Shown piece after piece: positions 17,673-64,000 of a stretch of DNA of 64,000 nt; positions within the stretch are counted from its first letter, which is position 1; each line of letters starts with the position of its first letter. The stretch comes from Torymus aiolomorphi (lineage: Eukaryota; Arthropoda; Insecta; Hymenoptera; Torymidae). The stretch is taken from positions 23,734,209 through 23,798,208 of the forward strand of contig CM070874.1 in the NCBI GenBank assembly GCA_036365515.1, read 5' to 3'. Below the pieces are notes generated by a model. It saw only the letters and a program-made list of their open reading frames with translations. It had not been told where the DNA came from and did no database searches. Position numbers and translations under genes: made by a program.

Positions 17673-18700
<1,028 letters not shown>

Positions 18701-23929: not shown

Positions 23930-25690
23930 TGATCTAAGAAGCTTTTATATGTATTTTTTAAATTGTTTTTATCAGTCATTCGATTAATGTTATTCTTATT
24001 TATGTGAATGTGCATCATTTCTGAAAATAAACGATTATACTTATTACTTTATTTATCAATTATTCTAGCTTTTTTAAGGCCAATTTTATGTTTTATCTTT
24101 TTCCCATGTTCAGCTAATGCGGATTTTTCACTTTTATTCGCTATATCTCTTCTGGGTTCATTCAATCTAGTTTTGAATTGTCTACAGGATTGGCCTATAT
24201 AAGTAGCTTTACAATCAATACAGTCAATTTTATAAACAACATTACTAACATTTTCTTTCTTAGTTACATCTTTCCCTAACTTAATAATATTGCTTAGTTT
24301 GATTGTTGTTTTGTTGACCTGTTTTGAACCATATTTGTTAAGTGTATGTATAATTTCATTCGAAAAAGTTTGGATGTATGGTAGTGTTATTCACTTTTGG
24401 TATGATTGACGATATTATTTTCTGAGCCTATAGTAGTATTTTTTGAATTTTCTCTATGCTTAAGAATAATTAGACGTTTCATAATGGTTTTATTTATAAA
24501 ATTAATAGGGTAATCATTATTAGTTAAAAATTTTCTGATTAAGTTAAAATTTTTTTCATGAAATTGTTGTTCAGTATGTTTAATGACTTTATCAACTAAC
24601 ATAATGATGATACTTCTTTTTTGGGTGACAGAATGGTGAGAATTAAAATTTAAGTATCTCCCAGAAAAGGTGGGTTTTCTGTACCAGTTTGTTGATATAG
24701 ATTGATCACAATTTCTAATTAATTGCAAGTCCAAAAAACTAATCATCATGTTTTTTTTGTTTTTCTATAGTGAACTGTAAATTGCTGTAACTATTAAAGA
24801 CAGAAAGGGTGTAATCAACTTTCTTACTTGGTAAACATAAGATAATATCATCTACATGTCTGTAATAAAATGGTAATACAAAATGTAGTTTGTTGAGGCA
24901 ATCTAACTCTAGATCCTCCATAACAATATCGGCAAGTAATGGGCTTATCGGACTACCCATTGCACAACCAAATGTTTGCTGATAAAACTTCCCATTAAAT
25001 TTAAAAAAAAGTTTTTTGTAGAATAAATGAGATGCCATCAACAAACTCATCACATGATAACTTTATGTAATCTTTCAGATAATCCCATCTTCTTACAAGC
25101 GCTTTTTTAATTAATGATTGATCAACATTAGAAAATAAGCTTACAATATCTAAACTAACTATAACATAATCTTTTGGTAAGATAACATTCTTGAGTTTTT
25201 CTTTTAAGTCATAACTATTTTTTAAATAAGATTGCGATTTTATAAAATAAGTTGTACAAAGTTTGTTTAAAAATTTGGCAAGTTGACAGGTCGGCGATTT
25301 AATAGCTGATACAATGATTCTTAATGGATAATTTTCTTTGTGTACCTTAACTAGACCATGACATTTGGAGAGATTGAGAGTGCTTGTGTTTATATTGATG
25401 TTTTCATTTTCGAAAATACCTTTATCATTCCACTTTTTCAATAGTTTGTTGGTACAGTTATTGAGTTTTGTGAGAGATTTTTCTTCAATAGTTTATAATA
25501 TTTTTCATCAATAAGCGCTTATTCAACTCTCAAAACATAATTATCTTTTTCAATAACAACCGTAACATTGCCTTTGTGTGCTTTTGTGATAAGGAATTCC
25601 TTATGTTTTTTTCAGAATTGTTGAGTTTTGACAATATTATATTCCAGGGTTCTATCAATGTAACTAGAGTGTCTTTGTTTCTTTGTATAA
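23930..25690 (-). pseudogene. Penelope-like RT and GIY-YIG endonuclease, minus copy
   Basis: RT segments on the minus strand are 25441-25001 (KCHGLVKVHKENYPLRIIVS, SLDIVSLFSNV), 25053-24739 (GCAMGSPISPLLADIVMEDL, then YRHVDDIIL with the catalytic DD intact) and 24749-24387 (SFLDLQLIRN, NWYRKPTFSGRYLNFNSHHS). Frame changes fall in homopolymer runs near 25010-25050 and 24745-24760. Upstream (25690-25441) an interrupted frame resembles the PLE region with ITKAHKGNVTVVIEK. Downstream toward 23990, text like ATYIGQSC marks the GIY-YIG region, now frameshifted. Confidence 0.82.
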
Positions 25691-25769
25691 TTTAAAATCT
25701 TATTTAATAGTTTTTGTCGGATTTCATCATTATTTTTTCCATTATAATAAAAACTGTTTTCAATGTTTT

Positions 25770-27290
25770 TACAAAAATTGGAATGAGAAAGGTATTTTCG
25801 AATATGAAAAGATCAATATAAACACAAGCACTCTCAATCTCTCTAAATGTCATGGTCTAGTTAAGGAACACAAAGAAAATTATTCATTAAAAATCATTGT
25901 ATCAGCTATTAACTCGCCGACCTATCAACTTGCCAAATTTTTAAACAAATTTTGTACAACTTATTTTAATAAACGGCAATCTTATGTAAAAAATAGTTAT
26001 GACTTAAAAGAATAACTCAAGAATGTTATCTTACCAAAAGATTATGTTATAGTTACTTTTGATGTTGTAAGCGTATTTTCTACTGTTGATCAATCACTAA
26101 TTAGAAAAGCGCTTGTAAGAAGATGGGATTATCTCAAAGATTACATAAAGTTATCATGTGATGAGTTTGTTGATAGCATCTCATTTATTCTACATAACAC
26201 TTTTTTTCAATTTAATGGGAAGTTTTATCAGCAAATATTTGGTTGTGCAATGGGTAGTCCGATAAGCCCATTACTTGCCGATATTGTTATGGAGGATCTA
26301 GAGTTAGATTGCCTCAACAAACTACATTTTGAATTACCATTTTATTGCAGACATGTAGATAATATTATTTTATGTTTACCAAGTAACAAAGTTGATTACA
26401 CCCTTTCTGTCTTTAATAGTTATAGCAATTTATAGTTCACTATAGAAAAACAAAAAAACATAATGATTAGTTTTCTGGACTTGCAATTAATTAGAAATTG
26501 TGATCAATCTATATCAACAAACTGGTACAGAAAACCCACCTTTTCTGGAAGATACTTAAATTTTAATTCTCACCATTCTGTTACCCAAAAAAGAAGTATC
26601 ATCATTATGTTAGTTGATAAAGCCATTAAACAGACTAAACAACAATTTCATGAAAAAAATTTTAACTTAATCAGAAAATTTTTAACTAATAATGATTACC
26701 CTATTAATTTTAAAATAAAACCATTAAGAAACGTCTAATTATACTTAAGGATAGAGAAAATTCAAAAAATACTACTATAGGCTCAGAAAATAATATTGTC
26801 AATCATACCAAAAGGTCAATAACACTACCATACATCCAAAATTTTTCGATGAAATTACACATACACTTAACAAATATGGTTTTAAACAGGTCAACAAAAC
26901 AACGAACAAACTAAGCAATATTATTAAGTTAGCGAAAGATGTAACTAAGAAAGAAAATGTTAGTAATATTCTTTATAAAATTGACTGTACTGATTATAAA
27001 GCTACTTATATAGGCCAATCCTGTAGACGATTGAAAACTAGATTGAATGAACAGAGAAGGGATATTGCGAAAAAAAAGTGAAAAATCCGCATTGGCTGAA
27101 CATGTGAAAAAGACAACATAAAATTGACCTTGAAAACGCTAGAATAATTGATAAAGAAAGCAATAAGTATCATCGCCTATTTTCAGAAATGATGCTTATA
27201 CACATAAATGAGAATAACATTAATCGAATGACTGATACAAACAATTTAAAAAATACATATAAAAGCTTCTTAGATCAACTATCAATAGCA
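25770..27290 (+). pseudogene. Penelope-like RT and GIY-YIG endonuclease, plus copy
   Basis: It starts within the N-terminal part of RT (WNEKGIFEYEKININTSTLN). RT motifs are GCAMGSPISPLLADIVMEDL (GSPISPLLAD from about 26250) and a palm box reading CRHVDNIIL, where the second catalytic Asp of the DD pair is Asn. In-frame stops occur near 26013 and 26432. The GIY-YIG region near 26980-27060 (LYKIDCTDYKATYIGQSCRR) is followed by a frameshift. Inactive copy. Confidence 0.82.
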
Positions 27291-31063: not shown

Positions 31064-31473
31064 ACTACTAACAAAGAAGAGCAAATGGGAGTGGAGGAAG
31101 GCACAACAAATAGCGTTCGATCAACTTAAGGCGAGCCTAACACAGACACCGGTGCTAGCATGCCCTGATTGATCGAAACAATTCACGCTACAGACGGACA
31201 CAAGTCGCGAGGGCCTCGAAGCAGTACTCACGCAAGGAGAGGGGGACAACGAGCAAGTTATCGCCTATGCTAACCCTATGCTAACCCCTCAACAAGGCAG
31301 AACGCAACTACTCCGCCACGGAGTTGGAATCTTTGGCGGTAAAGTGGAGAGTGTGGAAGATGCGCGACTATCTGGAAGGATACCACTTTACCATCCTGAC
31401 AGACCATCAATCCCTTAAATGTAGCGGACATCAAACAAACCAATAGTTGTAAAAAATTATTATTGCCTTATTG

Positions 31474-31518
31474 CCAACGTTTCGGGAGCGTTTGTATACT
31501 CCCCTCCTCAGGGCATAG
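31474..31518 (-). ncRNA. Hammerhead-like motif, minus strand
   Basis: On the minus strand: CTGAGGA core (C-U-G-A-N-G-A), stem II GGGAG with CTCCC, then GAAACGTT. Stem I UGCC pairs with GGCA after the GUU cleavage triplet. Stem III would be the minimal, palindromic ACGU kind reported for PLE hammerheads. One extra G sits between the core and the best-paired stem II. Confidence 0.65.
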
Positions 31519-31557
31519 GCAATAGGATCGACCAACATGTTTAATTGATATTGTTTA

Positions 31558-31606
31558 CTATGCCCTGAGGAGGGGAGTATACAAACGCTCCCGAAACGTT
31601 GGCAAT
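31558..31606 (+). ncRNA. Hammerhead-like motif, plus strand
   Basis: Same motif as the minus-strand one, in the right arm: CTGAGGA at 31565-31571, stem II arms GGGAG and CTCCC, GAAAC at 31593-31597, GUU at 31598-31600. The two motifs point away from each other. Confidence 0.65.
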
Positions 31607-31829
31607 AAAGCAATAATAATTTTTTATAACTATTGGTTCTTTTGATGTCCGCTACCTTAATAAAATACATACAGCACGAACGTACACTCAACTATATCCC
31701 TTAAATGGTTGGACGGAATTGAAAACCCATCCGGCCGCCTGGCGAGATGGGCTATGGAGATCAGCAAGTGGGACTATAAAATCCAATATCGCTGAGGAGC
31801 CGAGAACACGATCGCAAACGCCCTCTCTC

Positions 31830-37505: not shown

Positions 37506-37674
37506 TAAGATTTTAAACAATTATTACACTCAATAATTGTTATGACGCTAATGTGCATAAAGGCAAAAAACAATCTCATGTCCTTTTTATTAAAGTCCCA
37601 AATCGAAAAAAGTTGTCAAAAATAAGAGATTATAACAATAAGTCAAACACTTATTGCAGTCTAAAAAATTCACG

Positions 37675-37739
37675 GGTGTTTCGTCCAGGCTACTAGATTG
37701 GACTCATCAGTGATGATCTAGTAGCCGTCATCAGACACC
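37675..37739 (-). ncRNA. Type III hammerhead ribozyme, array copy 1
   Basis: Read on the minus strand. Stem III GGUGU pairs with ACACC (open end). C17 follows and cleavage is predicted after it, between 37734 and 37733. Stem I UGAUGA pairs with UCAUCA around an 11-nt loop. The core CUGAUGA follows, then stem II GUCC with GGAC around a 13-nt loop, then GAAA. All conserved core positions are met. The loops contain GGCUACUAGA and UCUAGUAGCC, which are fully complementary over 10 nt. The product would be a 353-nt monomer with 5'-OH and 2',3'-cyclic phosphate ends, by general hammerhead chemistry. Confidence 0.9.
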
Positions 37740-38027
37740 TGGCGCTCCATCGTAGCGGCCAAAGGTTTATAGACTGAGCCACTCTTTTCACTAGTGGAAA
37801 AGAGAGGCTCCATCTGTCGGTGCGTTACACAAGCACCGCGTTAAATATAAATTTAAATGAAGCTAATTGCCTAGTGTAATATTTAATAATTGTTATGACG
37901 CTAATGTGCATAAAGGCAAAAAACAATCTCATGTCCTTTTTATTAAAGGCCCAAATCGAAAAAAGTTGTCAAAAATAAGAGATTATAACAATAAGTCAAA
38001 CACTTATTGCAGTCTAAAAAATTCACG

Positions 38028-38092
38028 GGTGTTTCGTCCAGGCTACTAGATTGGACTCATCAGTGATGATCTAGTAGCCGTCATCAGACACC
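38028..38092 (-). ncRNA. Type III hammerhead ribozyme, array copy 2
   Basis: Sequence of the 65-nt motif is the same as in copy 1, including core, stems and complementary loops. Confidence 0.9.
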
Positions 38093-38380
38093 TGGCGCTC
38101 CATCGTAGCGGCCAAAGGTTTATAGACTGAGCCACTCTTTTCACTAGTGGAAAAGAGAGGCTCCATCTGTCGGTGCGTTACACAAGCACCGCGTTAAATA
38201 TAAATTTAAATGAAGCTAATTGCCTAGTGTAATATTTAATAATTGTTATGACGCTAATGTGCATAAAGGCAAAAAACAATCTCATGTCCTTTTTATTAAA
38301 GGCCCAAATCGAAAAAAGTTGTCAAAAATAAGAGATTATAACAATAAGTCAAACACTTATTGCAGTCTAAAAAATTCACG

Positions 38381-38445
38381 GGTGTTTCGTCCAGGCTACT
38401 AGATTGGACTCATCAGTGATGATCTAGTAGCCGTCATCAGACACC
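38381..38445 (-). ncRNA. Type III hammerhead ribozyme, array copy 3
   Basis: Same 65-nt motif as copy 1, with intact core. Confidence 0.9.
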
Positions 38446-38733
38446 TGGCGCTCCATCGTAGCGGCCAAAGGTTTATAGACTGAGCCACTCTTTTCACTAG
38501 TGGAAAAGAGAGGCTCCATCTGTCGGTGCGTTACACAAGCACCGCGTTAAATATAAATTTAAATGAAGCTAATTGCCTAGTGTAATATTTAATAATTGTT
38601 ATGACGCTAATGTGCATAAAGGCAAAAAACAATCTCATGTCCTTTTTATTAAAGGCCCAAATCGAAAAAAGTTGTCAAAAATAAGAGATTATAACAATAA
38701 GTCAAACACTTATTGCAGTCTAAAAAATTCACG

Positions 38734-38798
38734 GGTGTTTCGTCCAGGCTACTAGATTGGACTCATCAGTGATGATCTAGTAGCCGTCATCAGACACC
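38734..38798 (-). ncRNA. Type III hammerhead ribozyme, array copy 4
   Basis: Same 65-nt motif as copy 1, with intact core. Confidence 0.9.
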
Positions 38799-39086
38799 TG
38801 GCGCTCCATCGTAGCGGCCAAAGGTTTATAGACTGAGCCACTCTTTTCACTAGTGGAAAAGAGAGGCTCCATCTGTCGGTGCGTTACACAAGCACCGCGT
38901 TAAATATAAATTTAAATGAAGCTAATTGCCTAGTGTAATATTTAATAATTGTTATGACGCTAATGTGCATAAAGGCAAAAAACAATCTCATGTCCTTTTT
39001 ATTAAAGGCCCAAATCGAAAAAAGTTGTCAAAAATAAGAGATTATAACAATAAGTCAAACACTTATTGCAGTCTAAAAAATTCACG

Positions 39087-39151
39087 GGTGTTTTGTCCAG
39101 GCTACTAGATTGGACTCATCAGTGATGATCTAGTAGCCGTCATCAGACACC
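39087..39151 (-). ncRNA. Hammerhead ribozyme copy 5, core G12 changed to A
   Basis: The plus strand reads GTGTTTTGTCC where other copies read GTGTTTCGTCC. On the minus strand the GAAA becomes AAAA, so G12, the catalytic general base in hammerheads, is lost. Stems and loops are otherwise unchanged. This copy is probably inactive. Confidence 0.85.
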
Positions 39152-39439
39152 TGGCGCTCCATCGTAGCGGCCAAAGGTTTATAGACTGAGCCACTCTTTT
39201 CACTAGTGGAAAAGAGAGGCTCCATCTGTCGGTGCGTTACACAAGCACCGCGTTAAATATAAATTTAAATGAAGCTAATTGCCTAGTGTAATATTTAATA
39301 ATTGTTATGACGCTAATGTGCATAAAGGCAAAAAACAATCTCATGTCCTTTTTATTAAAGGGCCAAATCGAAAAAAGTTGTCAAAAATAAGAGATTATAA
39401 CAATAAGTCAAACACTTATTGCAGTCTAAAAAATTCACG

Positions 39440-39504
39440 GGTGTTTCGTCCAGGCTACTAGATTGGACTCATCAGTGATGATCTAGTAGCCGTCATCAGA
39501 CACC
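39440..39504 (-). ncRNA. Type III hammerhead ribozyme, array copy 6
   Basis: Intact 65-nt motif; the last copy before the array inverts about 20 bases further on. Confidence 0.9.
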
Positions 39505-39686
39505 TGGCGCTCCATCGTAGCGGCCTAATTTAACAATTATTAAATATTACACTAGGCAATTAGCTTCATTTAAATTTATATTTAACGCGGTGCTTGTGTA
39601 ACGCACCGACAGATGGAGCCTCTCTTTTCCACTAGTGAAAAGAGTGGCTCAGTCTATAAACCTTTGGCCGCTACGATGGAGCGCCA

Positions 39687-39751
39687 GGTGTCTGATGACG
39701 GCTACTAGATCATCACTGATGAGTCCAATCTAGTAGCCTGGACGAAACACC
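39687..39751 (+). ncRNA. Type III hammerhead ribozyme, array copy 7 (inverted part)
   Basis: Same motif on the plus strand: GGTGTC, stem I, CTGATGA, stem II, GAAACACC. Predicted cleavage falls after C39692. Confidence 0.9.
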
Positions 39752-40039
39752 CGTGAATTTTTTAGACTGCAATAAGTGTTTGACTTATTGTTATAATCTC
39801 TTATTTTTGACAACTTTTTTCGATTTGGGCCTTTAATAAAAAGGACATGAGATTGTTTTTTGCCTTTATGCACATTAGCGTCATAACAATTATTAAATAT
39901 TACACTAGGCAATTAGCTTCATTTAAATTTATATTTAACGCGGTGCTTGTGTAACGCACCGACAGATGGAGCCTCTCTTTTCCACTAGTGAAAAGAGTGG
40001 CTCAGTCTATAAACCTTTGGCCGCTACGATGGAGCGCCA

Positions 40040-40104
40040 GGTGTCTGATGACGGCTACTAGATCATCACTGATGAGTCCAATCTAGTAGCCTGGACGAAA
40101 CACC
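40040..40104 (+). ncRNA. Type III hammerhead ribozyme, array copy 8 (inverted part)
   Basis: Same motif as copy 7, 353 bases further on, with intact core. Confidence 0.9.
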
Positions 40105-40520
40105 CGTGAATTTTTTAGACTGCAATAAGTGTTTGACTTATTGTTATAATCTCTTATTTTTGACAACTTTTTTCGATTTGGGCCTTTAATAAAAAGGACA
40201 TGAGATTGTTTTTTGCCTTTATGCACATTAGCGTCATAACAATTATTAAATATTACACTAGGCAATTAGCTTCATTTAAATTTAAATTATTACACTCATT
40301 GAAGACTATATTTGGTTAAAATTTCAAGAGATTATCTTAATTTGTTTTTTAGAAAAAATTATTTTAGAAAGAAATTTGTACAGAAAAAAAAGTCCATTAC
40401 GAAAGAAATACTTAAGGTTGAAAATTTTTTGAAAACATTTTCGAATGGCGTTTTCTCAGAGAATACTTGATTTATCGACATAAAATTTTAACCACTTATT
40501 AAACTTATTGAAGACTATAT

Positions 40521-41179
40521 CGTCGGTACATACGAAAAAAGGCGCGCTGGTAAACTGATACGAAAAAAGGCGCGGTAGGAATTTGATACGAAAAGAGGCG
40601 TGCTGCAGCGATTGACGGCGAAAAAAGGCGTGCATTCAAAAATTGTCGGCGAAGAAAGGCGCGCTGCATGATTTACGGCGAAAAAAGGCGTGCTCCAACG
40701 ATGGACGGTGAAAAAAGGCGCAATATATAAGATTTAACGCTCAATTTTATATAATTTTGTATATCCATATATATATATGAAAATAGCGCGCGACACGACT
40801 TACAGAATAAGGTGATTAGGGGAATGGACATCAACGAACGAGTTATTGTTTAAAAATTGATATATTTTTATTTTATTGATATATTTTAAATGGTTTAAAA
40901 TATATGAATTTTTAAACAATAACTCGTTCGTTGAAGTCCATTCCCCTAATCACAAAATATTACTACGAACGTCTCATTTTCAAAATTACAGAATAAGGCC
41001 CCAGGAATTGACGGCGAAAAGAGGCGCGCTGTACGATTGACGGCGAACCACTACCAACACAGCACGTCCTTTTTCGCCATCAACCATATCAGTGCGCCTT
41101 TTTTCGCCGTCAAAGTCACAGCACGCCTTTTTTTCGCCGTCACTTTTTGTAAGCGCGTCTTTTTTCGTATGTACCGACG
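40521..41179. mobile_element. TIR element with AAAAAAGGCGCG subterminal repeats
   Basis: Ends are CGTCGGTACATACGAAAAA and the complementary TTTTTCGTATGTACCGACG. Inside each end, 25-35 base repeats built on GACGGCGAAAAAAGGCGYGC face outward in opposite orientation. The uninterrupted phrase GAAGACTATATTTGGTTAAAAT in neighbouring repeats shows the empty site, with a small AT-rich duplication. No coding capacity. Confidence 0.75.
40812..40953. repeat. Hairpin nested inside the TIR element
   Basis: Arms of about 48 bp start GTGATTAGGGGAATGGAC and end GTCCATTCCCCTAATCAC, with an AT-rich spacer. Likely a second, nested MITE. Confidence 0.75.
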
Positions 41180-41590
41180 ATATATGGTTAAAATTTTAAG
41201 AGATAATTTTCATTCGTTTTTCAGAAAAAAACGTTTCATAAAAAAGTAGAGTTTCCGTTATTGAACAACAACAAGAGTAAAAATTATCCAATCGTTTTGA
41301 AATCTGGAAAAGATGTAGCATCTATATATCATCAGACCGAGTTCGCTAACAAAAAAAATTCGTCCATTACGAAAAACGATATTTGAGATTAAGAATTTTT
41401 TTTACTTTTCGAATCTCGTTTTCTGAGAAAATACTTGATTTATCGACAAATTTATCCACTTACTGAACTCATTGAAGACTATATTTGGTTAAAATTTCCA
41501 TAGATTATCTTCATTTCTTTTTCAGAAAAAAAAAAGTTTCATATAAAAGTAGAGTTTCTGTTGTCGGACGATAATAAGAGTGGCTTCCTC

Positions 41591-48341: not shown

Positions 48342-48354
48342 GATTCTGAAACTT

Positions 48355-49290
48355 AATTATTTTATGAAGCTAATGGCCATATCTACCAGTGAAAGGTGAT
48401 TTTTTTACAAAATTAAAAAATAAAAAACACCATAATCTTCGACGTTTCGGAGACTTTATTCATATCTCCCTCTTCAGGAATCTATAATTAATAATTTAAG
48501 AAATTTAACACACTGTTTTTTTTTTAAAAAAAAAAAAAAAAAAAAATACTAATATACGACGACTTACAATCCTTAATTACATATCGTAATGTCAAGTAGT
48601 TTATGCGGGCAACAATCCGCTCGTCAGTGATTTTAGAAAACACTTTTCTCGCTTTATATATTCAAGTAACATTTAAATGTGTAAGTGCGTATCTAATTCA
48701 CCACTACAACATAAACAATGAAAGAGTGGGAGAAAGGCAAACCGTAAGAGTCGAAGAGAGCGAAGAGAGGTACCAGGGCGACACGTATTGGCGAAAGTAA
48801 CCCTAATAACCTTAGTCTCTATAATACAAGACTATGGATACTTCCATTATACATGCGTTCCTAGTAACCTTTTAGCTAACGTACATGGATGTTATATTTC
48901 TTTAGAGACCAAAAATTCACAATTATTTATCAGAGTATTATATACATACGGTAGTCTACTAATTTCAAATTGTTTATTAATAAAGTTATTTTGTGTATGA
49001 ATAAATAGAGCTTCGGAGAATAATCTTTTTTCTTTATTGTTTTCGATATCTAGTATCTTTACGTTTTGAAAATTAATTGTGTGACTATTATCTTGTGTGT
49101 GAATAAATAATGATGAATTTTGATCTCTATCACAGTACGTTTTTTGATGTTCTTTTATTCTAACATTCAGACGCCTACTAATTTGCCCTACGTATGACGC
49201 GTTACAATTGTTACAATTTATCTTATAAACTACATTTGCATTATTATATTTTACATTTTTGTCCTTACCTAATTTTATAATATTATTTAC
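48355..49290 (-). repeat. Inverted copy of the PLE 3' end
   Basis: On the minus strand it encodes the GIY-YIG end of the PLE protein (ASYVGQISRRLNVRIKEHQK) and the 3' untranslated region with its hammerhead-like motif. It matches the right-hand end with very few differences. An A-run near 48524 differs in length. Confidence 0.88.
48435..48482 (-). ncRNA. PLE hammerhead-like motif, minus strand
   Basis: On the minus strand: CTGAAGA (C-U-G-A-N-G-A), stem II GGAGA with TCTCC, GAAAC, then GUC. The ACGU palindrome at stem III is the minimal form described for PLE hammerheads. Stem I pairs for about 3 bp (UUC/GAA). Confidence 0.65.
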
Positions 49291-49314
49291 TTAATTAATT
49301 TTATTAATTAATAA

Positions 49315-49636
49315 ATTAATAACAGATTTGATAATAAGTTAGCATTAAATTACGTAAAAAACTTTGAATCCTTTTTAAAAAATGACATTGATGAAGAGAA
49401 TATCCCAAAGTTAAGAGTAAAGTTTCTTAACACGATTAAAAAATTTTATAATAAAGATCTTGCTACAAATTCTCATGTAGATAAAAAGTTTAAAATAGAT
49501 TTAGAAAAAACAAAGAAGTTCATAAAACATCACCCATATATCTTAATAACTAGAGCTGATAAGGGAAATGCAACTGTCATAATTAAAAAGTCCACATATT
49601 CAGAAAAAACAGAACTATTATTTTGTGATGAGAAAT
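49315..49636 (+). pseudogene. PLE protein, N-terminal part, cut by the LINE
   Basis: The plus strand encodes VKNFESFLKNDIDEENIPKL and HHPYILITRADKGNATVIIK, the conserved PLE segment before the RT palm. It ends at ELLFCDE where the LINE tail begins. The matching rest starts at about 55129. Confidence 0.75.
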
Positions 49637-50807: not shown

Positions 50808-53657
50808 CTAGATGTTTGCTTTTATCCAGATCTTGATTTTATATTTCAGACTTTTTTTATTCGTTATTGTTTTAAGGTCATTAGGCAGTTTGTTGTAGGT
50901 AGTTAGTGCTCTAATGTAGCTGTTTTTGATGCTGATGCGTTTACAACGTTTAGGTATTGGTATACTTTTATTCCTCATTACTTTGTCGGATTCTATATAT
51001 TTGTCTTGTAATTCTTTGTAATGAAATATTAGTGACTCAAAGGTAAAAATTTGCTCTATATTTAGTGGATTTCTGTCATAAATAAAATTGTTTTTATTTA
51101 TAAGTTTAAGCAGTCTGTTTTGCAGGCTTTGTAAGCTTTTGGTTCTACCTGCGTAAGCGCCTCCCCAGGCTATAATACCGTAGGAGGTGATACTGTGGAA
51201 CAACGCATAGTAAATCATACGCAGATTGTCTGTGTCCATTATAATAGACAGTTTGTATAAGATGAAAGTAAGGTATTTGGTCTTATTATATATATTTTTG
51301 GTGTGTATATCCCATTTCATGTTGCTATCGAAAGTTACTCCTAGGTATTTGGTGTTTTCTACTCTTTTGATGTTTTTTCCTTGTATGCAAATGTTCATAT
51401 TTTTAGGCGTGCTTTTATAATTGCTGCCGAATTCCATGTATATTGTTTTGTCCTTGTTGAGAGATAGTTTATTTAGTGCTAGCCAGTTGGCTATATCTTG
51501 TAGGTAGTCGTTCATTTTAGTTTCTACTTCTTGCCAGGTTTTACCTATTGCTATGATCGCAGTGTCGTCAGCGTATGACAATATTGTATCTTCAGGCATT
51601 GAAGATAACATATCATTAATATAAATAATGAACAGCAGTGGTCCAAGTATTGTACCTTGCGGTACTCCCATATAGACAGTTTTGTATTGGCTATAATCAT
51701 TACCTATTTTCACCCTTTGTTTCCTATTACTTAGATAACTTTTTATGAGGTTATATGCGCTACCTCTGATGCCGTAGTTATATAGTTTATCAAGCAAAAT
51801 TTGATGATCTACTGTATCGAATGCTTTCGCTAGATCGAGGAATGTAATAGCTATTGGGTCGCTTGCATCTATGTGGTTATAGATTGTGTTAGTTATTTGA
51901 TATAGTGCATCTTTAGTGCCTCTATTTTTCCTGAATCCAAATTGTTTATTTGAGATCAAGTTACATTTATCTATGAAAGATGATATTCTACTATGCAGTA
52001 GTTTTTCCAATACTTTTGCAACATTTGAGATCAGGGAAATTGGTCTGTAGTTTGTTGGCAGATGCTTTTCTTTGGCTTTATGTATTGGTATAATATCCGC
52101 AAACTTTAAAGCATCAGGCCAAATTTCTTTCTCTAAGCATAAGTTGGTTATGTGAACCAGTGGGTCGGAGATGTGTGATATTATAACTTTGAGTGAGAGT
52201 GTATTAATACCATCACACCCACCATTTTTATTTTCCATGTTTAATATTGTTTTTTGTATTTCTTGATGATTAGTAGGATATAGAAAAATACTCTTGTTAT
52301 TCTTAGTAGGCAGCCTTACTCTTTTGTTTGGTGGAGTTTTAATTTTGTCACACAGTTGTTTACCAACGTTGCAGAAGAAGTTGTTGATATGTTCAGAAAT
52401 TTCTTTTGAGTCGGTTATTTTTTTATTGTTATTATCCATGATAAAATTAATGTTGTTATTTATTTTACTATTTTTTCCAATTTTGTTATTAATTAATCTC
52501 CAGAGATTCCTTTGATTATTTATGTTTGATTGTATTTGCTTTCTATCATGGTCCTTTTTTGCTTGGTTGATAATGTGGTTAAGTATCTTAATGTAGTTTT
52601 TGTAATTTTCTTTTTTTACAGAGTTAGTAGGATCCTTCTTCCATATATTATATAGTTTTTCTTTATTTTTACACGAATTTATTATTGCTTTTGTTATCCA
52701 ATTTTTCCTCGGTTTCATGTTGTTTTGTTTATTGCTATGCGTCTTAATTATTGACCTGTTTAGGCATGTTTGAATTTTTTGTATAAGGTTATTTAAGGCT
52801 TGGTTGGGATCTGTTATTAATGAGATATCTGCCCATTTTATAGTTCCTGCTGTTTTTTCCAATTTATTGTAGTTAAATCTTTTTCCTAATTTGGTACTGG
52901 ATTGTTTTTTAATATTTTTTAATGACATCATTATGGGAAAATGGTCGGTAAAAGGTGTTTTTAGTAAGTAGGTTTTATATTTAATTTTGTCTAGTTTAAT
53001 GAAAAAGTTATCTATACAGGTGCCATTGCTATTGTTATTAATATCTGATGGTCTAGTTATACTTTTAAATCCTGGGCAGTAACCATTTTCTAATAGGATT
53101 TGTAAAAAGTCTTGATCTAAAACATCTTGGCTTAATATATCAAAATTGAAGTCTCCTATTATTATATTATTTTTTTGTTTCTTGCTTATTTTTAGAAAAT
53201 TTTTAATATTTATTAAGAATTCAGTTTTATGTATGTCATGTGATCGGTAAATTGATGATAATGTTATGTTTTTGTTATTTTCAAGTGTGATTTTCGTGTT
53301 CATTATTCTAAGTTTATTTATTTGTATAATTTCCGTGGTTTCTGTGATGTCTTCACTTATATATAATACTACACCATCCGATTGATTTATGTTGCTTTCA
53401 TTATAGTACATTCTATATTTTGGAATATTAAAAAATTCGTGGTGTTCAAGTTTCCATGTTTCAGTACATACTATAATACAAGGCTTTGTAACAAGCCTGT
53501 TTAAGAATACTAATAGTTTATTGTAATTAGCATTTAAACTTCTTATATTAACGCAAAGAATTAATTCTTTGACTGTAGCTAGGCATCTATTTAATTCGGT
53601 TACACTATTTGTGATATGTTCGTTGTCAAATATTACCTCTTGAGAATCAAGATTCAT
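50808..53657 (-). CDS. LINE ORF2: AP-type endonuclease and reverse transcriptase
   Basis: 949 codons without interruption. Residues about 1-245 are an exonuclease-endonuclease-phosphatase domain (CTETWK with the catalytic Glu, IIGDFNFDI, then FTDHFPIM). RT spans about 510-780 with NYRPISLISNVAKVLEKLLH, FLDLAKAFDTVDHQILLDKL, GVPQGTILGPLLFIIYIND and the catalytic SYADDTAI. The C-terminal part follows the RT thumb (GVTFDSNMKWDIH). The start codon overlaps the end of ORF1 by 11 bases in another frame, suggesting termination-reinitiation. Catalytic residues are present, so ORF2 could be active. It would nick the target and reverse transcribe LINE RNA at the nick. Confidence 0.93.
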   Translation of the reverse strand: MNLDSQEVIFDNEHITNSVTELNRCLATVKELILCVNIRSLNANYNKLLVFLNRLVTKPCIIVCTETWKLEHHEFFNIPKYRMYYNESNINQSDGVVLYISEDITETTEIIQINKLRIMNTKITLENNKNITLSSIYRSHDIHKTEFLINIKNFLKISKKQKNNIIIGDFNFDILSQDVLDQDFLQILLENGYCPGFKSITRPSDINNNSNGTCIDNFFIKLDKIKYKTYLLKTPFTDHFPIMMSLKNIKKQSSTKLGKRFNYNKLEKTAGTIKWADISLITDPNQALNNLIQKIQTCLNRSIIKTHSNKQNNMKPRKNWITKAIINSCKNKEKLYNIWKKDPTNSVKKENYKNYIKILNHIINQAKKDHDRKQIQSNINNQRNLWRLINNKIGKNSKINNNINFIMDNNNKKITDSKEISEHINNFFCNVGKQLCDKIKTPPNKRVRLPTKNNKSIFLYPTNHQEIQKTILNMENKNGGCDGINTLSLKVIISHISDPLVHITNLCLEKEIWPDALKFADIIPIHKAKEKHLPTNYRPISLISNVAKVLEKLLHSRISSFIDKCNLISNKQFGFRKNRGTKDALYQITNTIYNHIDASDPIAITFLDLAKAFDTVDHQILLDKLYNYGIRGSAYNLIKSYLSNRKQRVKIGNDYSQYKTVYMGVPQGTILGPLLFIIYINDMLSSMPEDTILSYADDTAIIAIGKTWQEVETKMNDYLQDIANWLALNKLSLNKDKTIYMEFGSNYKSTPKNMNICIQGKNIKRVENTKYLGVTFDSNMKWDIHTKNIYNKTKYLTFILYKLSIIMDTDNLRMIYYALFHSITSYGIIAWGGAYAGRTKSLQSLQNRLLKLINKNNFIYDRNPLNIEQIFTFESLIFHYKELQDKYIESDKVMRNKSIPIPKRCKRISIKNSYIRALTTYNKLPNDLKTITNKKSLKYKIKIWIKANI

Positions 53658-55124
53658 TTTCTAACGTATCAAATCTTGGTTGAGCTGTAGATGTAGGGGT
53701 TGCTGGAGATAATGTACCGGCAGATGTGTTGGTCGTTAATCTAACTCTTCTAGTAGTTATCCATTGCTGTGAGCGGGAATTGCTTTGTTTGCCGATTTCT
53801 AGGTTGCCAAAGTACCGACGGTAGGTAGGCTGCAGTGGATAGTCTGTCATTTCAATGTATTTTTTTATTTTGTGTTTTAGCACTTCACACTGATCACTGT
53901 CTATTGCACTATGATTTATATTGTAATTAGTTTTGTATTTGTTGTTGTTAAATTCACAGTTTGCGCATTTAAGAGTATCACATTTACACTCAGCAGCTGC
54001 GTGATTTCCTGCACATTTGTAGCACTTGTCCTCATTATCGCATTTTTTGCCACTGTGGCCGACTCTTGAGCATTTAGTACATGGATTTGTGTTTATTATG
54101 TCAAATACTCTGCAATTTTGAAACCCTATAAATAACTTGTTTTTATTGTCTCTTATATGTTTGTAGATTGTAGGCGTTACTTCAACTATTGCACTCATTG
54201 TTTTAGCTTTTTCACTTGAGTTTATGTGTAGAACTTTGCACTTGTCATCAATATTGTTAAAGTTTCTTTGGTTAATGTCTTGTTCTAGTTCTTTATCATT
54301 AAACACTTTTTCAATGTTAATAATTTTCACTATAGGTTTTTTTTATTTCTTCTTTTTTGATTTTTGCATTAGTTGATAATTTTTTAGATAAGGTCTTTTC
54401 AATTGCATTTATACTTTCTTCGTTCATACAGTTTATTAATATAGTATCATTATTTATTTTTGTCACTTTTTTTGTTTGGATTGTTTTGTCTTTAGCAAGA
54501 TAATGCAGTACAGTGTTTTCTAGGTTTATATTGTCTTTGTTGTTTGTTTTTAACAATTAGTTTTGGTACTCTTTTAGCTTTGGGTTTAGTATTTGTTAAA
54601 ATTTCTGCATAAGTGTGGGGCTTGATGTTTTTAAAATTGTTATTTTGTCTTTCTTTTACGAGTAATTCGTTTAGTAAGGCGTTCTTTTCTTGTGTTTCTT
54701 TAAGTAATTGTTTTAGCAGGTTATTTTCAATTTTCAGTGAGTCTGATTCATTGTAATCTTCATATATGGTTTTATTGAGACCATTTTCTTCTGTTGTCTC
54801 ATGCACTATGTTATTCACCATGTCTTGTTTAATTTGTTCACGGTTTTCATGCTTTAGCTGTGCTATGAATTGCCACGCTGCTTCACTGAGCGTGCCATAT
54901 GGCAACTTTGAGGTTAGTGAGAGGTTAGGATGATCTTGGCACACAATAAATGAGTTGCTGAGGAATTTAATTGGTTTTCCTATGTTATATTTTGTAACTA
55001 TTTCATCAGTATGGTAGAAGTTTCCACACACTATGCACACCACTGCCCCAACGCTAATGCTGGGATGGCACTTGTAATATTTATTAAGAGAGGCATCGGG
55101 CGGCTCCTTCTCCTCCGACGCCAT
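53647..55124 (-). pseudogene. LINE ORF1: zinc-binding nucleic-acid protein, two frameshifts
   Basis: Three overlapping frames make one protein: 55124-54492 (MASEEKEPPDASLNKYYKCH; a Cys/His-rich PHD-like start, then a coiled coil), 54556-54317, and 54330-53647. The last part carries CCHC knuckles CTKCSRVGHSGKKC and CYKCAGNHAAAEC plus a further Cys/His set. The frame changes fall near 54545 and in an A-rich run near 54335-54345. Homopolymer-linked errors in the assembly or real mutations are both possible. ORF1 proteins bind element RNA. The ATG at 55124 is nearly at the LINE 5' end. Confidence 0.82.
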
Positions 55125-55128
55125 GTCG

Positions 55129-56738
55129 AAACTCGATATTATGAAAAAATTAAAAAGAATCCGTTGCCTAGTCTTGAAAGAAAAACTAATGAGTTAATTA
55201 AATGGCTCAATAAAATAGATTTTATGGGTAATGAAAAAAAGTTTCTTCCAATTTTACAAAAATTTAACATATCAAAAGCATACGGATTAATCAAAATACA
55301 TAAAACTGGTTTTCCAGTAAGACCTATAATTTCGACTGTAAATTCACCAACGTATTTTGTTTCAAAGTTTTTTGCAAAATTCTTACAGAATAATCTTAAA
55401 ACTCCTAAATCTCACATAGATAATAGTTTAAAATTAAAAGAAAAAATCGATAACTTGTATATTCCATTAGATCATGAGATCATAAGTTTCGATGTAATCA
55501 GTTTGTTTACGAATGTCCCAGAATATTTAGTTTGTAATGCTATAGAAAAAAGGTGGCATCAATTGTATAATATAATTAACATTAATTGTTCTGAATTCCT
55601 CCATGTTATTAAGTTTATCTTAAATAATAATTTCTTTCAATTTAACGAAAAATTTTATAGACAGACTTTTGGATCAGCCATGGGTAATCCAATAAGTCCA
55701 ATACTGTCAGACATAGTCATGGATGATTTAGAATCTTACTGTATTAATAAATTACAATTTAAACCGCTATTTTATTATCGTTATGTGGATGATATTGTAC
55801 TGTGTATACACAAGAATGACATTGATAATACGTTAAAGATATTTAATGCGTACGATTTGAATTTACAATTTACGGTTGAAAAACCCAAGAACAATAGTAT
55901 AAGTTTTTTAGACATTGAAATTATTATAAATGATCATAGAAATATTATTACAAATTGGTATAAAAAACCAACTTTTTCAGGCCGGTATCTAAATTACAAT
56001 TCTCACCATACCCAAAGTAATAAAATTGCTATTATTTATTGTTTAATTGATCGAGCAATAAAATTATCACATAGTAGTTTTCAGGAAAAAAATATTTCGT
56101 TCATAAAATTATTATTAAAAAACAATGATTATCCACAAGACATAATAGATTATCATATTAAAAAAAGGTTAAAAAAGATAAAATTTAATAATAACACTTC
56201 ACAGAATACCACACTAATTTTCAATAATGTAAATAAGAAAAAATTTATTGTTCTACCATTTGTCAAAGAAATGGAATGTTCGATAAAAAACTTTTTTAAT
56301 AAATGTAACACTAATGTAATTTTTAGTACGATTAATAAACTAAATAATATTATAAAATTAGGTAAGGACAAAAATGTAAAATATAATAATGCAAACGTAG
56401 TTTATAAGATAAATTGTAACAATTGTAACGTGTCATACGTAGGGCAGACTAGTAGGCGTCTGAATGTTAGAATAAAAGAACATCAAAAAAAGTACTGTGA
56501 TAGAGATCAAAATTCATCATTATTTATTCACACACAAGATAATAGTCACACAATTAATTTTCAAAACGTAAAGATACTAGATATCGAAAACAATAAAGAA
56601 AAAAGATTATTCTCCGAAGCTCTATTTATTCATACACAAAATAACTTTATTAATAAACAATTTGAAATTAGTAGACTACCGTATGTATATAATACTCTGA
56701 TAAATAATTGTGAATTTTTGGTCTCTAAAGAAATATAA
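55129..56738 (+). pseudogene. PLE protein, RT and GIY-YIG endonuclease
   Basis: The frame is open from inside the LINE, but PLE sequence starts at about 55130 (RYYEKIKKNPLPSLERKTNE). RT motifs: GLIKIHKTGFPVRPIIST, SFDVISLFTNVPEYL, GSAMGNPISPILSDIVMDDL, YRYVDDIVLCI with both catalytic Asp, and NWYKKPTFSGRYLNYNSHH. The end is a GIY-YIG domain (VYKINCNNCNVSYVGQTSRR). About 535 residues are intact. The gene is split by the LINE from its N-terminal part at 49315-49636, so the locus is now inactive, but the C-terminal part shows that it decayed little before or since. Confidence 0.9.
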
Positions 56739-57144: not shown

Positions 57145-57192
57145 GATTCCTGAAGAGGGAGATATGAATAAAGTCTCCGAAACGTCGAAGAT
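57145..57192 (+). ncRNA. PLE hammerhead-like motif, plus strand
   Basis: CTGAAGA at 57150-57156, stem II GGAGA/TCTCC, GAAAC at 57179-57183, GUC triplet at 57184-57186. Identical in form to the one in the inverted arm at 48435. An extra G lies between core and best-paired stem II. Confidence 0.65.
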
Positions 57193-57325
57193 TATGGTGT
57201 TTTTTATTTTTTAATTTTGTAAAAAAATCACCTTTCACTGGTAGATATGGCCATTAGCTTCATAAAATAATTATCTACAATACTCTACCATTAGCTGAGA
57301 TCAACAACTTAAGATTCTGAAACTT

Positions 57326-58800: not shown

Positions 58801-59360
58801 GAACACATATATAGAAAAAAAAAGTGATTGATAAGTTAGTTACTTTCCTTATCTATTATCTTACGCCCTGAACAGCCATTAGATTCACTTATTAAATTAA
58901 CATAAATCGTCGGGCGTTTCCTTCAATTGATAAAATAATATTGTCTGCTTCGGCTGAAAATAATGCGGGGATTTGGGTAATAAAAATTGAGAACGATTAA
59001 GTAGCGGTTAGGGTCTGGAAAGGATTGTCAGCCCAGTGGCGCAAATGGTAGCATAGCTGCCCGGTAAGCAGAAGGTTGTCGGTACGACCCCGGCCTGTGC
59101 CGTTATTTTGTCGTTCTCATTTTTTATCTTATACGTTTACCTTCCCTTTCCATATCCTTTAAAAATTCTTGACTGCACTTTAATTATTATAATACTGTGC
59201 ATAATTCTTTGACTGCTATTTATTGTGTCAAATAGCTTCTAAAAATTTTAATATGTATTTAAACACATACATAGAAAAAAAAGTGATTGACAAGTTAGTT
59301 ACCTTCCTTATCTATTATCTTTCGCCCTGAATAGCCGTTAGATTTACTTATTAAATTAAT
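58801..59360. repeat. 100-bp direct repeats flanking a tRNA-like sequence
   Basis: 58801-58900 and 59261-59360 share GTGATTGA-AAGTTAGTTAC, CCTTATCTATTATCTT and CGCCCTGAA-AGCC with about 10 percent difference. A tRNA-like sequence sits between them at 59030-59101. Confidence 0.75.
59030..59101 (+). ncRNA. tRNA-like sequence (Thr-like anticodon), probably a SINE head or pseudogene
   Basis: The 72-nt layout fits a tRNA: acceptor AGCCCAG/CTGTGCC (two mismatches), box A TGGCGCAAATGG, anticodon loop CCGGTAA (GGT), variable loop AGGTT, T-stem GTCGG/CCGGC with loop TACGACC. Position 33 is C instead of U and the T-loop lacks the usual TTC. Not convincing as a functional tRNA. Confidence 0.5.
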
Positions 59361-59879: not shown

Positions 59880-62800
59880 TAAGAGTAATGATTAATTTGA
59901 ATCTTTCTGAAATTATTTCTGAATTATTTAATGATATAATTCTTGAAATGATTTCTGAATTGTTTTATGTTTTCTTTCAAAAAATCTGTTCAAGGTTCCT
60001 TCAGAAAGAAATCGTATAGATATTTTTTTCGCTATTTTATTAAAAACAATTTTATTCCAAAAATCGTTTTCAAAAGAATCCTAAATTATTCCTTGTATTA
60101 ACGCACATGAGTTTCCTGGAAGATTTCATCTAATAATTCATGAAAGGTTTTTGAATAGATATTAAATTATATTTGTGAACGATTAATTTGTATCTTTCTG
60201 AAATTATTTCTGAATTATTTCATGAAACAATATTTGCAATAATTTCTGAACTATTTTATGTTTTCTTTCAAAAAATCTATTCAAGGTTCTCTCAGAAAAA
60301 ATCGTATAGATATTTTTTTCGCTATTTTATTTAAAAAATTTTGTTCTAAAAACATTTTTCAAACGAATTCTAAATTATTTCTTTTCTTAATTCACACGAG
60401 TTTCCCGGAAGATTTCATGTAATAATTCATAAAGGTTTCTGAATAGATATTAAATTATTTTTGTGAACGATTAATCTGTATCTTTCTGAAATTATTTCTG
60501 AACTATTTCATGATATAATTCTTGAAAAGATTTCTCAATTGTTTTATGTTTTCTTTCGAAAAATCTTTTCAAGTTTCTTTCAGGAAGAATTCACGTAATT
60601 ATTTTTTCCCTTATTTTGATTAAAAAATTTTATTCTAAAAATCTTTTTCAACCGAATTCTAAATTATTTCTTTTATTAATTCACACGAGTTTCCCGGGCG
60701 ATTTCATGAAATAATTCATGAAAGGTTTTTCAATAGATATTGAATTATTTTTGTGAACGATTAATTAGTATCTTTCTGAAGTTATTTCTGAATTATTTGA
60801 TGAAAGAATACTTGCAATCATTTCTGAACTATTTTATGTTTTCTTTCAAGAAATCATTTCAAGGTTCTTTCAGGATGAAATCGTGTAATTATTTTTTTCG
60901 CTATTGTATTTAAAAAATTTTATTCTAAAAATATTTTTCAAACGAATTCTAATTAATTTCTTGTATTAATTCACACGAGTTTCCCGGAAGATTTCATAAA
61001 ACAATTCATGAAAGGTTTTTGAATAGATATTGAATTATTTTTAGAACGATTAATTTGTATCTTTATGAAATTATTTCTGATTTATTTCATGATATAATTC
61101 TTGTAATGATTTCTGAATTGTTTTAGGTTTTCTTTCAAAAAATCTTTTCAAGGTTCTTTCAGAAAGAATTCGTGTAGATATTTTTTTCGCTATTTTATTA
61201 AAACAAAATTTATTCGAAAAATATTTTTCAAAAGAATCCTAAATTATTCCTTGTATTAACTCACATGAGTTTCCTGAAAGATTTCATGTAATAATTCATG
61301 AAAGGTTTTTGAATAGATATTAAATTATTTTTGTGAACGATTAATTTGTATCTTTCTGAAATTATTTCTGAATTATTTCATGAAACAATATTTGCAATAA
61401 TTTCTGAACTATTTTATGTTTTCTTTCAAAAAATCTGTTCAAGGTTCTCTCAGAAAAAATCGTATAGATATTTTTTTCGCTATTTTATTTAAAAAAATTT
61501 ATTCTAAAACCTTTTTCAAACGAATTCTAAATTATTTCTTTTCTTAATTCACACGAGTTTCCCGGAAGATTGCATAAAATAATTCATGAAAGGTTTTTGA
61601 ATAGATATTGAATTATTTTTGTGAAATTTTAAATTGTATCTTTTTGAAATTATTTCTGAATTATTTCATGAAACAATATTTGCAATAATTTCTGAACTAT
61701 TTTATGTTTTCTTTCAAAAAATCTGTTCATGGTTCCTTCAGAAAGAAATCGTATAGATATTTTTTTCGCTATTTTATTAAAAACAATTTTATTCCAAAAA
61801 TCTTTTTCAAAAGAATCCTAAATTATTCCTTGTATGAATTCACATGAGTTTCCTGTAAGATTTCATGTAATAATTCATAAAGGTTTCTGAATAGATATTA
61901 AATTATTTTTGTGAACGATTAATCTGTATCTTTCTGAAATTATTTCTGAACTATTTCATGATACAATTCTTGAAAAGATTTCTCAATTGTTTTATGTTTT
62001 CTTTCGATAAATCTTTTCAAGTTTCTTTCAGGAAGAATTCACGTAATTATTTTTTCCCTTATTTTGATTAAAAAATTTTATTCTAAAAATTTTTTTCAAA
62101 CGAATTCTAAATTATTTCTTTTATTAATTCACACGAGTTTCCCGGGAGATTTCATGAAATAATTCATGAAAGGTTTTTCAATAGATATTGAATTATTTTT
62201 GTGAACGATTAATTAGTATCTTTCTGAAGTTATTTCTGAATTATTTCATGAAAGAATACTTGCAATAATTTCTGAACTATTTTATGTTTTCTTTCAAGAA
62301 ATCTTTTCAAGGTGCTTTCAGGAAGAAATCGTGTAATTATTTTTTTCGCTATTGTATTTAAAAAATTTTATTCTAAAAATATTTTTCAAACGAATTCTAA
62401 TTCATTTCTTATATTAATTCACACGAGTTTCCCGGAAGATTTCATAAAACAATTCATGAAAGGTCTTTGAAAAGATATTGAATTATTTTTGTGAATGATT
62501 AATTTGTATCTTTCTGAAAATATTTCTGAATTATTTCATGATATAATTCTTGTAATGATTTATGAATTGTCTTAGGTTTTCTTTCAAAAAATCTTTTCAA
62601 GGTTCTTTCAGAAAGTATTCGTGTAGAAATTTTTTTCGCTATTTTATTAGAAACAATTTTATTTAAAAATCTTTTTCAAAAGATTCCTAAATTATGCTTT
62701 GTATAAATTCACATGAGTTTCCCGGAAGATTTCATGTAATTCAAAGGTTTTTGAATAGATATTGAATTATTTTTTGAAAGATTAATTTGTATCTTTCTGA

Positions 62801-63330
62801 AATTATTTCTTAATTATTTCATGATATCATTCTTCAAATGATTTCTGAATTGTTTTATGTTTACTTTCAAAAAATCTTCTGAAGGTTCTTTCAGGAAGGA
62901 TTCGTTTAATTATTTTTTTCGCTATTTTGTTTTAAAAAATTTTATTCTAACAATCTTTTTCAAACGAATTCTAAATTATTTATTGTAATAATTCACATGA
63001 GTTTCCCGGAAGATTTCATGAAATAATTCATGAAATGTTTTTGAATAGATATTGAATTATTTTTGTGAACGATTAATTTGTATCTTTCAGAAGTTATTTC
63101 TGAATTATTTCATGAAAGAATACTTGCAATAATTTCGGAACAATTTTATGTTTTCTTTCAAAAAATCTTTTCAAAGTTCTTCCAGGAAGAATTCGTGTCA
63201 TTATTTCTTTCCCGATTTTGATTAAAAAATTTTATTCTAAAAATCTTTTTCAAAAGAATTCTAAATTAATTCTTGTACTAATTCACACGAGTTTCTCGGA
63301 AGATTTCATGAAATAATTCATGAAAGGTTT
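59880..63330. repeat. Satellite of about 290 bp, about 12 units, with higher-order structure
   Basis: GAACGATTAAT (or variant) recurs near 60177, 60464, 60758, 61038, 61334, 61622, 61911, 62202, 62492, 62778 and 63067. Two unit types mostly alternate: one with ATAATTCTTGAAATGATTTC, one with AATACTTGCAATAATTTC. Units near 60464, 60758 and 61038 best match those near 61911, 62202 and 62492, an offset of about 1447 bases or five units. Confidence 0.9.
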
Positions 63331-64000
63331 TCAGAGGCGTTTTTTATACACACACAATCAAATTTTATGAATAAACAGTTCGAAATTACAAGGCAACCTA
63401 ACGAATATAATACGTTTATAAAAAATTTCGATTTCTCATCTCCGAAATAATGTACTTTCCGTTCTATGACTTTGTAAAGGTATCACGAACGCACACATGT
63501 AGGAGGTATGACTACACAGCGTGGAAGTAGGCTTAGTCCATTTACTAAAACATCGATAGCGCCACCTCCTCCTGTGTGTCGCCCTGTTACCTCTCTCCGT
63601 CTACGAGCTCTGTCAGCGACGCCTCTCCCACCATTTCTACTTCACGTCACCATTTATATGTATTAGTTATATCTGTGATAAAGTATATTTTCGAACACAC
63701 ACACATTTGGTTAGTATATAAGCGGGAATTTTGTAAAATCTAGTTATTGATGAGCGGATTTTTCACTGCGTAACTAGATTGACACTGTCTTATTGTAAGT
63801 TTTTGTTCATATATTTAATGTGATTTAGTTACTTACGTTTAACATACCTGTAATAATTTATGTAAAAACATTTTTTTGAATAGAATCCTGATGAGGGACA
63901 CAAATAAAAGTGTCCGAAACGTCGAAACACGACAAATGTTGTTTTTTATTTACAAAAACATTACCTGGTAGAGAGATAAGCCATTAGGATCACTATATAG
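63331..64000 (+). mobile_element. Truncated Penelope-like element 3' end
   Basis: The plus strand begins within the last PLE codons (FIHTQSNFMNKQFEITRQ, stop near 63450). A 3' untranslated region follows with CTCTCTCC-type text as in the PLE at 57 kb, a hammerhead-like motif at 63883 and GATAAGCCATTAGGATCAC near the window end. RT and most of the endonuclease are missing. The window ends before the right flank. Confidence 0.75.
63883..63930 (+). ncRNA. PLE hammerhead-like motif, plus strand
   Basis: CTGATGA at 63888-63894, stem II GGACAC/GTGTCC, GAAAC at 63916-63920, GUC at 63921-63923. The stem II sequence differs from the 57 kb copy while pairing is kept, which supports a structured RNA. 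Stem I is short. Confidence 0.65.

Follow-up and report, generated by a model that had tools for sequence, protein, structure and literature searches.

The retrozymes described so far from animals carry type I hammerhead ribozymes, and Penelope-like elements (PLEs) or long interspersed nuclear elements (LINEs) have been proposed as the elements that move them (PMC7229834, PMC7761336, PMC11722881; here and below, statements on published work refer to excerpts of the cited papers). The proposal for PLEs draws on the coexistence of the two kinds of element, on the hammerheads present in both, and on the tandem occurrence of both (PMC7229834, PMC7761336). Type III hammerheads are known from a delta-like RNA of a termite, from the genomes of two termites, where they are isolated motifs, and from flies; searches by structure in a cockroach and in some hymenopterans and hemipterans gave none of the termite delta-like architecture (PMC7936874). 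Here we describe an array of 353-bp units carrying type III hammerheads at positions 37533-40284 of a 64,000-nucleotide stretch of Torymus aiolomorphi DNA (GCA_036365515.1, contig CM070874.1, positions 23,734,209 to 23,798,208 of the forward strand; the whole stretch is called the window below). We regard it as fairly probable, judging from the sequence, that the array arose through a single insertion, by PLE machinery, of a small non-autonomous retroelement (a retrozyme); movement by a PLE enzyme is suggested because the ends of the array match the ends of a nearby PLE. Searches of the open-access literature, with subscription papers and preprints outside their scope, brought up no paper on an animal type III retrozyme or on a retrozyme and a PLE with common ends. 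Insect elements with type III hammerheads are mentioned in one clause, as work in preparation, in the excerpted part of PMC7761336, and the type III aspect of the array may therefore not be wholly new.

Results

Organization of the array and evidence for a single insertion

Tandem Repeats Finder, run on the 64-kb window, detected a 353-bp period at 37532-39525 and 39531-40288, and the array itself amounts to 7.8 near-identical units. Cutting at the predicted cleavage site of the hammerheads yielded six full units, five on the minus strand and one on the plus strand, each of exactly 353 bp, which agrees with the unit length given in the first-pass annotation of this DNA. Variation among the six was confined to unit positions 51 (G12 of the hammerhead core to A, in one unit) and 136 (in one unit), and the GC content of the unit was 38%. 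The units are arranged head to head. The inverted part (37533-39525, minus strand; 5.6 units) runs from unit position 327 at 39525 to 201 at 37533, and the sense part (39531-40284, plus strand; 2.1 units) runs from unit position 192 at the junction to 239 at the right-hand duplication described below; between them lies a 5-nt filler (39526-39530) for which a unit alignment is absent on both sides. The outer end of the inverted part is unit position 201 or 202, one base being ambiguous, and the two outer ends of the array are offset by 37 nt in unit coordinates. No second copy of the unit was detected elsewhere in the window at a meaningful E-value. Within the unit, no reading frame longer than 60 codons was present, and a search for an RNA polymerase III promoter gave one weak A-box-like match and no B box.

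Directly outside the array, on both sides, stands an exact 14-nt match, AATTATTACACTCA (37519-37532 and 40285-40298), which has the appearance of a target-site duplication. The limits assigned to the array in the first-pass annotation coincide exactly with the stretch between these two copies. Random flank pairs taken from the window (40 versus 70 nt) shared a word of at least 14 nt in 17 of 3,000 cases, and the match is therefore unlikely to have arisen by chance, even before its position is counted. Furthermore, the joined flanks aligned without gaps to a related repeat at 41451-41531 (plus strand), the putative unoccupied target, with 70/81 positions matching. By segment, the agreement was 5/7 for the left flank, 10/14 for the duplication, and 55/60 for the right flank, so that the evidence that the joined flanks continue this repeat is strong on the right (55/60) and modest on the left (5/7, gapless). 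A longer, gapped alignment to the same repeat matched at 89/115, and a second related repeat at about 40446-40520 matched at 55/75 (gapped). The possibility that the 14-nt word is the end of a unit was ruled out, as its copies are direct while the halves of the array are inverted, and as the joined flanks continue the related repeat. Given the 14-bp duplication and the continuity of the joined flanks with a related repeat, the array was most likely inserted as a whole. The description of the locus as satellite-like in the first-pass annotation is thus misleading, and a single insertion with a 14-bp duplication and a related empty site reads better. That annotation mentions neither the duplication nor the loop complementarity and the PLE link described below.

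Type III hammerheads in the units

The order of elements in the motif (stem III, C17, stem I hairpin, CUGAUGA, stem II hairpin, GAAA, stem III) is that of a type III hammerhead. Eight such motifs of 65 nt occur in the array, at 37675-37739, 38028-38092, 38381-38445, 38734-38798, 39087-39151, and 39440-39504 on the minus strand and at 39687-39751 and 40040-40104 on the plus strand, where cleavage is predicted after 39692 and 40045, respectively. The core is intact in seven of the eight, and these seven show an open stem III, CUGANGA, GAAA, and an NUH cleavage site; in the copy at 39087-39151, G12 is changed to A (unit position 51), and this copy is probably impaired. The first-pass annotation had counted eight motifs, seven of them with the full core, and this count was confirmed. 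Stem I measures 6 bp and stem III 5 bp, as it had stated, whereas stem II has 5 bp rather than the 4 bp that it had given. The first CUGAUGA, located at the cleavage site, was rejected as the core on inspection, as UGGAC lies between the would-be stem II and GAAA.

The motifs were further examined with a type III covariance model, the check proposed with the original assignment. The Rfam model RF00008 (Hammerhead_3) matched all eight motifs, seven at 36.9 bits (E-values of 1.5e-5 with 3.8 kb searched and 2.5e-4 with 64 kb) and the G12A copy at 33.2 bits (1.7e-4 and 0.0029, respectively). All eight stay below the gathering score of 48.5 bits and are missing from the results of a search run at this threshold. 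The scores likely fall below the gathering score because loops I and II, of 11 nt each, are large compared with those of most type III motifs, in which loop I has 6-8 nt and loop II 4 nt (PMC7936874). A strict type III descriptor, which by design misses the G12A copy, found seven motifs in the window, all of them inside the array, as compared with one motif in 1.92 Mb of Markov-simulated sequence searched on both strands. The assignment of a type III hammerhead to every unit was therefore upheld by sequence and by covariance model, though below the gathering score. Self-cleavage of transcripts to 353-nt monomers, followed by circle formation, is plausible as a prediction.

Penelope-like insertions in the window

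A PLE lies to the right of the array. Its reading frame (54954-56735, plus strand, stop to stop) matched RVT_1 (E 1.4e-7) and contained a GIY-YIG-like segment (E 0.0013, a match below the Pfam cut-off); the first part of the frame is probably not PLE. A reverse transcriptase with a GIY-YIG-like segment is, as far as sequence can tell, the make-up of a PLE. An inverted copy of the 3' part of this element is present at 48355-49318 (minus strand), and the alignment at 49318-48354 extends over 965 columns with 97.4% identity to the sense copy. A 13-bp duplication, GATTCTGAAACTT, encloses the two copies (48342-48354 on the left, 57313-57325 on the right), and between the copies there is a LINE-like reverse transcriptase frame (50808-53657). 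The sense copy extends 40 nt beyond the inverted copy, so that the 3' module of the PLE (57241-57312, plus strand) has two ends, one at 57272, the counterpart of the outer end of the inverted copy, and one at 57312, the sense end.

Both copies carry a minimal type I hammerhead, at 48441-48477 (minus strand) and 57150-57186 (plus strand). Hammerheads of this PLE type were also detected at 31476-31511 (minus strand) and 31565-31600 (plus strand), within a foldback (31422-31695), and at 63888-63923 (plus strand). The foldback is inserted in a Ty3-type element, and joining its flanks gives an open frame across the site; it has two arms of 112 nt that are 91% complementary, a 41-nt tail, and 12-bp duplications at 31410-31421 and 31696-31707. 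These hammerheads are known from pattern matching, with five matches in the window versus two in 20 shuffled windows, and Rfam did not list them at E-values up to 2.

Other traces of PLEs were observed in the window. The segment at 63328-63447, with 65% protein relatedness over 40 residues, together with its own minimal hammerhead at 63888-63923, is the end of another PLE that is cut off by the end of the window, and further remains of PLE reverse transcriptases, in both orientations and about 31-52% identical to the one near 55 kb, are found at 23932-27275.

Similarity between the ends of the array and the ends of the PLE

The ends of the array were compared with every place on either strand of the window outside the array and its duplications. 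For the 70 nt ending at unit position 239, the sense end of the insertion, the best of 122,156 places was 57312, the sense end of the PLE (score 39), and the best place outside that neighborhood scored 36. For the 28 nt ending at unit position 202, the top of 122,332 places was shared by four tied places with a score of 30, the next score being 23; two of the four (48355 and 48354) lie where the inverted PLE copy has its outer end, and the other two (57272 and 57273) lie at the corresponding site of the sense copy. Unit position 239 was also the best of the 353 possible anchor positions, with a score that none of 2,000 dinucleotide-shuffled versions of the PLE end attained. The array thus carries a PLE-end-like module at unit positions 170-239 (40215-40284, plus strand), whose end is the sense end of the insertion. 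Other high-scoring places for this module (45501 on the plus strand, and 21359 and 59177 on the minus strand) look like gapped, AT-rich chance alignments.

The layout of the array is also that of its neighbors. The duplication and the offset measure 14 bp and 37 nt for the array, 13 bp and 40 nt for the PLE, and 12 bp and 41 nt for the foldback, three insertions that were met by chance rather than in a systematic survey. With its head-to-head halves, a duplication in the range of 12-14 bp, and an offset of about 40 nt, the array follows the pattern of the two PLE-type insertions in the window.

Loop complementarity and competing folds

Loops I and II of the hammerhead are mutually complementary over 10 nt, or 11 nt if one base of stem I is used, and the same letters can form a nested 11-bp hairpin. 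In a pseudoknot-free prediction, the hammerhead fold had an energy of -12.5 kcal/mol, as compared with -23.5 kcal/mol for the best fold, which contains the 11-bp hairpin. The duplex between loop I and loop II alone was estimated at about -16 kcal/mol, and a kissing-loop fold could therefore compete with the nested hairpin. For the 353-nt circle, the prediction gave probabilities of at least 0.99 for 10 of the 11 hairpin pairs and of 0, 0, and about 0.04 for hammerhead stems I, II, and III, respectively. The circular fold of the unit was more stable than those of 60 shuffles (z -3.7). A pseudoknot between stems I and II has been predicted in about 40% of the hammerheads described in PMC3088659, and the ribozyme is reported to be left free in most animal retrozyme circles but blocked in those of plant retrozymes and in viroids (PMC7229834). 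A switch between kissing loops and the hairpin is what we infer from these predictions. In viral contigs, a looser hammerhead pattern matched at least 120 loci; among the matches listed were 37 distinct type III motifs with a loop-loop complementarity of at most 3 nt, as compared with 10-11 nt in the array, in a comparison unmatched for size, as most loops of these 37 motifs are small.

Other features of the window

A second tandem array, with a 290-bp unit in 11.9 copies and 86% matches, occupies 59890-63331, and Rfam listed no ribozyme there. A long hairpin at 40816-40949, matched by Rfam to families of plant microRNAs with scores far short of the thresholds, is probably a small foldback element. 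At 59030-59102, a transfer RNA-like Rfam match (31 bits versus a threshold of 29) was not called by ARAGORN and is perhaps the head of a short interspersed nuclear element. A GA repeat of 123 copies (99% perfect) is present at 18119-18364.

Discussion

Judged from its sequence, the element would work like an animal retrozyme that lacks one published defining feature, the type I hammerhead. As in the metazoan retrozymes without long terminal repeats (LTRs), the array consists of short tandem units with a hammerhead in each and has no LTR design; its unit length of 353 bp, its GC content of 38%, and its 14-bp duplication fall within the 150-450 bp, less than 50%, and more than 4 bp given for that group, for which the hammerhead is of type I rather than type III (PMC7229834). 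It also differs from them in a predicted circle that blocks the ribozyme, in its head-to-head layout, and in its PLE-like end module. The plant LTR retrozymes share with the array a type III hammerhead and a ribozyme blocked in the predicted circle, but they differ in being LTR-bearing dimers of 600-1000 bp with duplications of 4 bp (PMC4918200). With the PLEs that carry minimal type I hammerheads, both published (PMC11167929) and in this window, the array has in common the head-to-head arrangement, the two ends about 40 nt apart, and a similar end module, and with the PLE-type insertions of the window also the 12-14-bp duplications; unlike PLEs, its unit has no reverse transcriptase, and its hammerhead is of a different type and sequence. 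The termite and toad delta-like RNAs and the fly and termite genomic hammerheads likewise have type III motifs, with base-paired loops I and II comparable to the pairing that is possible in the array, but with a longer helix I that contains an internal loop and a 4-nt loop contact (GCCR with YGGC) in place of a complementarity of 10-11 nt, and the motifs in termite genomes are isolated and not in tandem (PMC7936874). The first-pass annotation had called a type III form in an insect tandem repeat unusual. This holds for an element that is tandem and retrozyme-like, but the type III motif as such had already been reported from termites and flies (PMC7936874), and insect elements that carry it are mentioned in PMC7761336. 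Searches with exact patterns gave no match in viral contigs and none in genome contigs, which says little, as these collections comprise viral and prokaryote DNA.

A mechanism for the insertion can be proposed from the properties of a purified PLE protein of the green anole (Anolis). This protein both cleaves and extends the two strands of its target, with a preference for AT-rich DNA containing 5'-ATT-3', and begins copying at two adjacent internal sites of its RNA; the stretch between these sites is the "tail", which genomic copies carry as an optional 30-40 bp extension (PMC11167929). In the anole PLE, the hammerhead cut falls 26 nt and the start 111-118 nt inside the frame, a distance of about 85-92 nt (PMC11167929); in the PLE of the window, the first end lies 86 nt past the predicted hammerhead cut (57186 to 57272). 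For the array, the units would be transcribed as multimers that the hammerheads cut into 353-nt RNAs, and a host ligase may close these into circles. The PLE protein would recognize the shared module at unit positions 170-239 and cut both target strands about 14 bp apart, and each target strand would then prime reverse transcription on the element RNA, at about unit position 202 for one strand and at 239 for the other. By going round a circle several times, or by running along a multimer, the enzyme would produce two tandem complementary DNAs, to be joined head to head with their outer ends some 40 nt apart.

Several observations weigh against insertion by PLE machinery. The similarity of the module is short (49 identities in 76 columns), and its unanchored local score was reached by 10 of 2,000 shuffles. 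In the window scan, the 70-nt anchor ending at unit position 202 did not find the PLE, and with unit position 201 taken as the end there were six tied places, one of which (59177) is unrelated. The same scan revealed no likeness between the ends of the foldback and the module, the predicted structure of the shared module was no better than those of shuffles, and the case rests on one array. Further, ribozyme mutants of the PLE RNA left insertion in vitro unaffected (PMC11167929). Circles are therefore not required, and the hammerhead need not belong to the insertion step; the task of the array hammerheads is likely the cutting of multimers into units.

Long duplications and head-to-head copies also arise from LINE-type insertion, which counts for the explanation that the retrozyme was inserted by a LINE or another reverse transcriptase with twin priming and that its likeness to the PLE ends is chance or an old, unused relationship. 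A LINE-like reverse transcriptase frame is indeed present in the window (50808-53657), and 15-bp LINE-like duplications have been reported for a sea-anemone retrozyme (PMC4918200). We consider this explanation unlikely, as the two ends of the array find their best or joint-best match, among about 122,000 places, at the two ends of the PLE insertion, and as the offset of 37 nt is close to the 40 nt of the PLE. That an ordinary satellite array with relict hammerheads was amplified and inverted in place by recombination would agree with units that are tandem and near-identical; the 14-bp duplication exactly at both ends, the flanks that join into a related repeat, and the intact cores of seven of the eight hammerheads make it very unlikely.

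The remaining explanation, to which we give the least credence, is that retroelement machinery captured an infectious circular RNA, viroid-like or delta-like, of which the array is the DNA copy. It would accord with a termite delta-like RNA whose hammerheads are of type III and have paired loops (PMC7936874), and with a circular fold that beats 60 shuffles (z -3.7). Each unit, however, has the ribozyme on one strand only (Rfam, E-values up to 10) and no frame of more than 60 codons, and the PLE-like module would be left unexplained.

Insertion by PLE machinery can be extended to a more specific model, which we put forward tentatively and with less confidence than the insertion itself. The type III retrozyme may be a direct parasite of one PLE family, carrying the two-start module of that family, so that its circular RNA would be copied by the PLE protein with both target strands as primers. 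The complementary loops might then serve as a two-state switch, kissing while the nascent multimer is being cut and forming the nested hairpin that protects the finished circle as a template.

The match between the ends of a retrozyme-like insertion and the ends of a PLE turns the proposal that PLEs move retrozymes into a directly testable one. The array further suggests that type I is not the only hammerhead class among animal retrozymes and that priming from both target strands can leave a head-to-head array behind, and fully complementary loops may act as a natural lock on the ribozyme.

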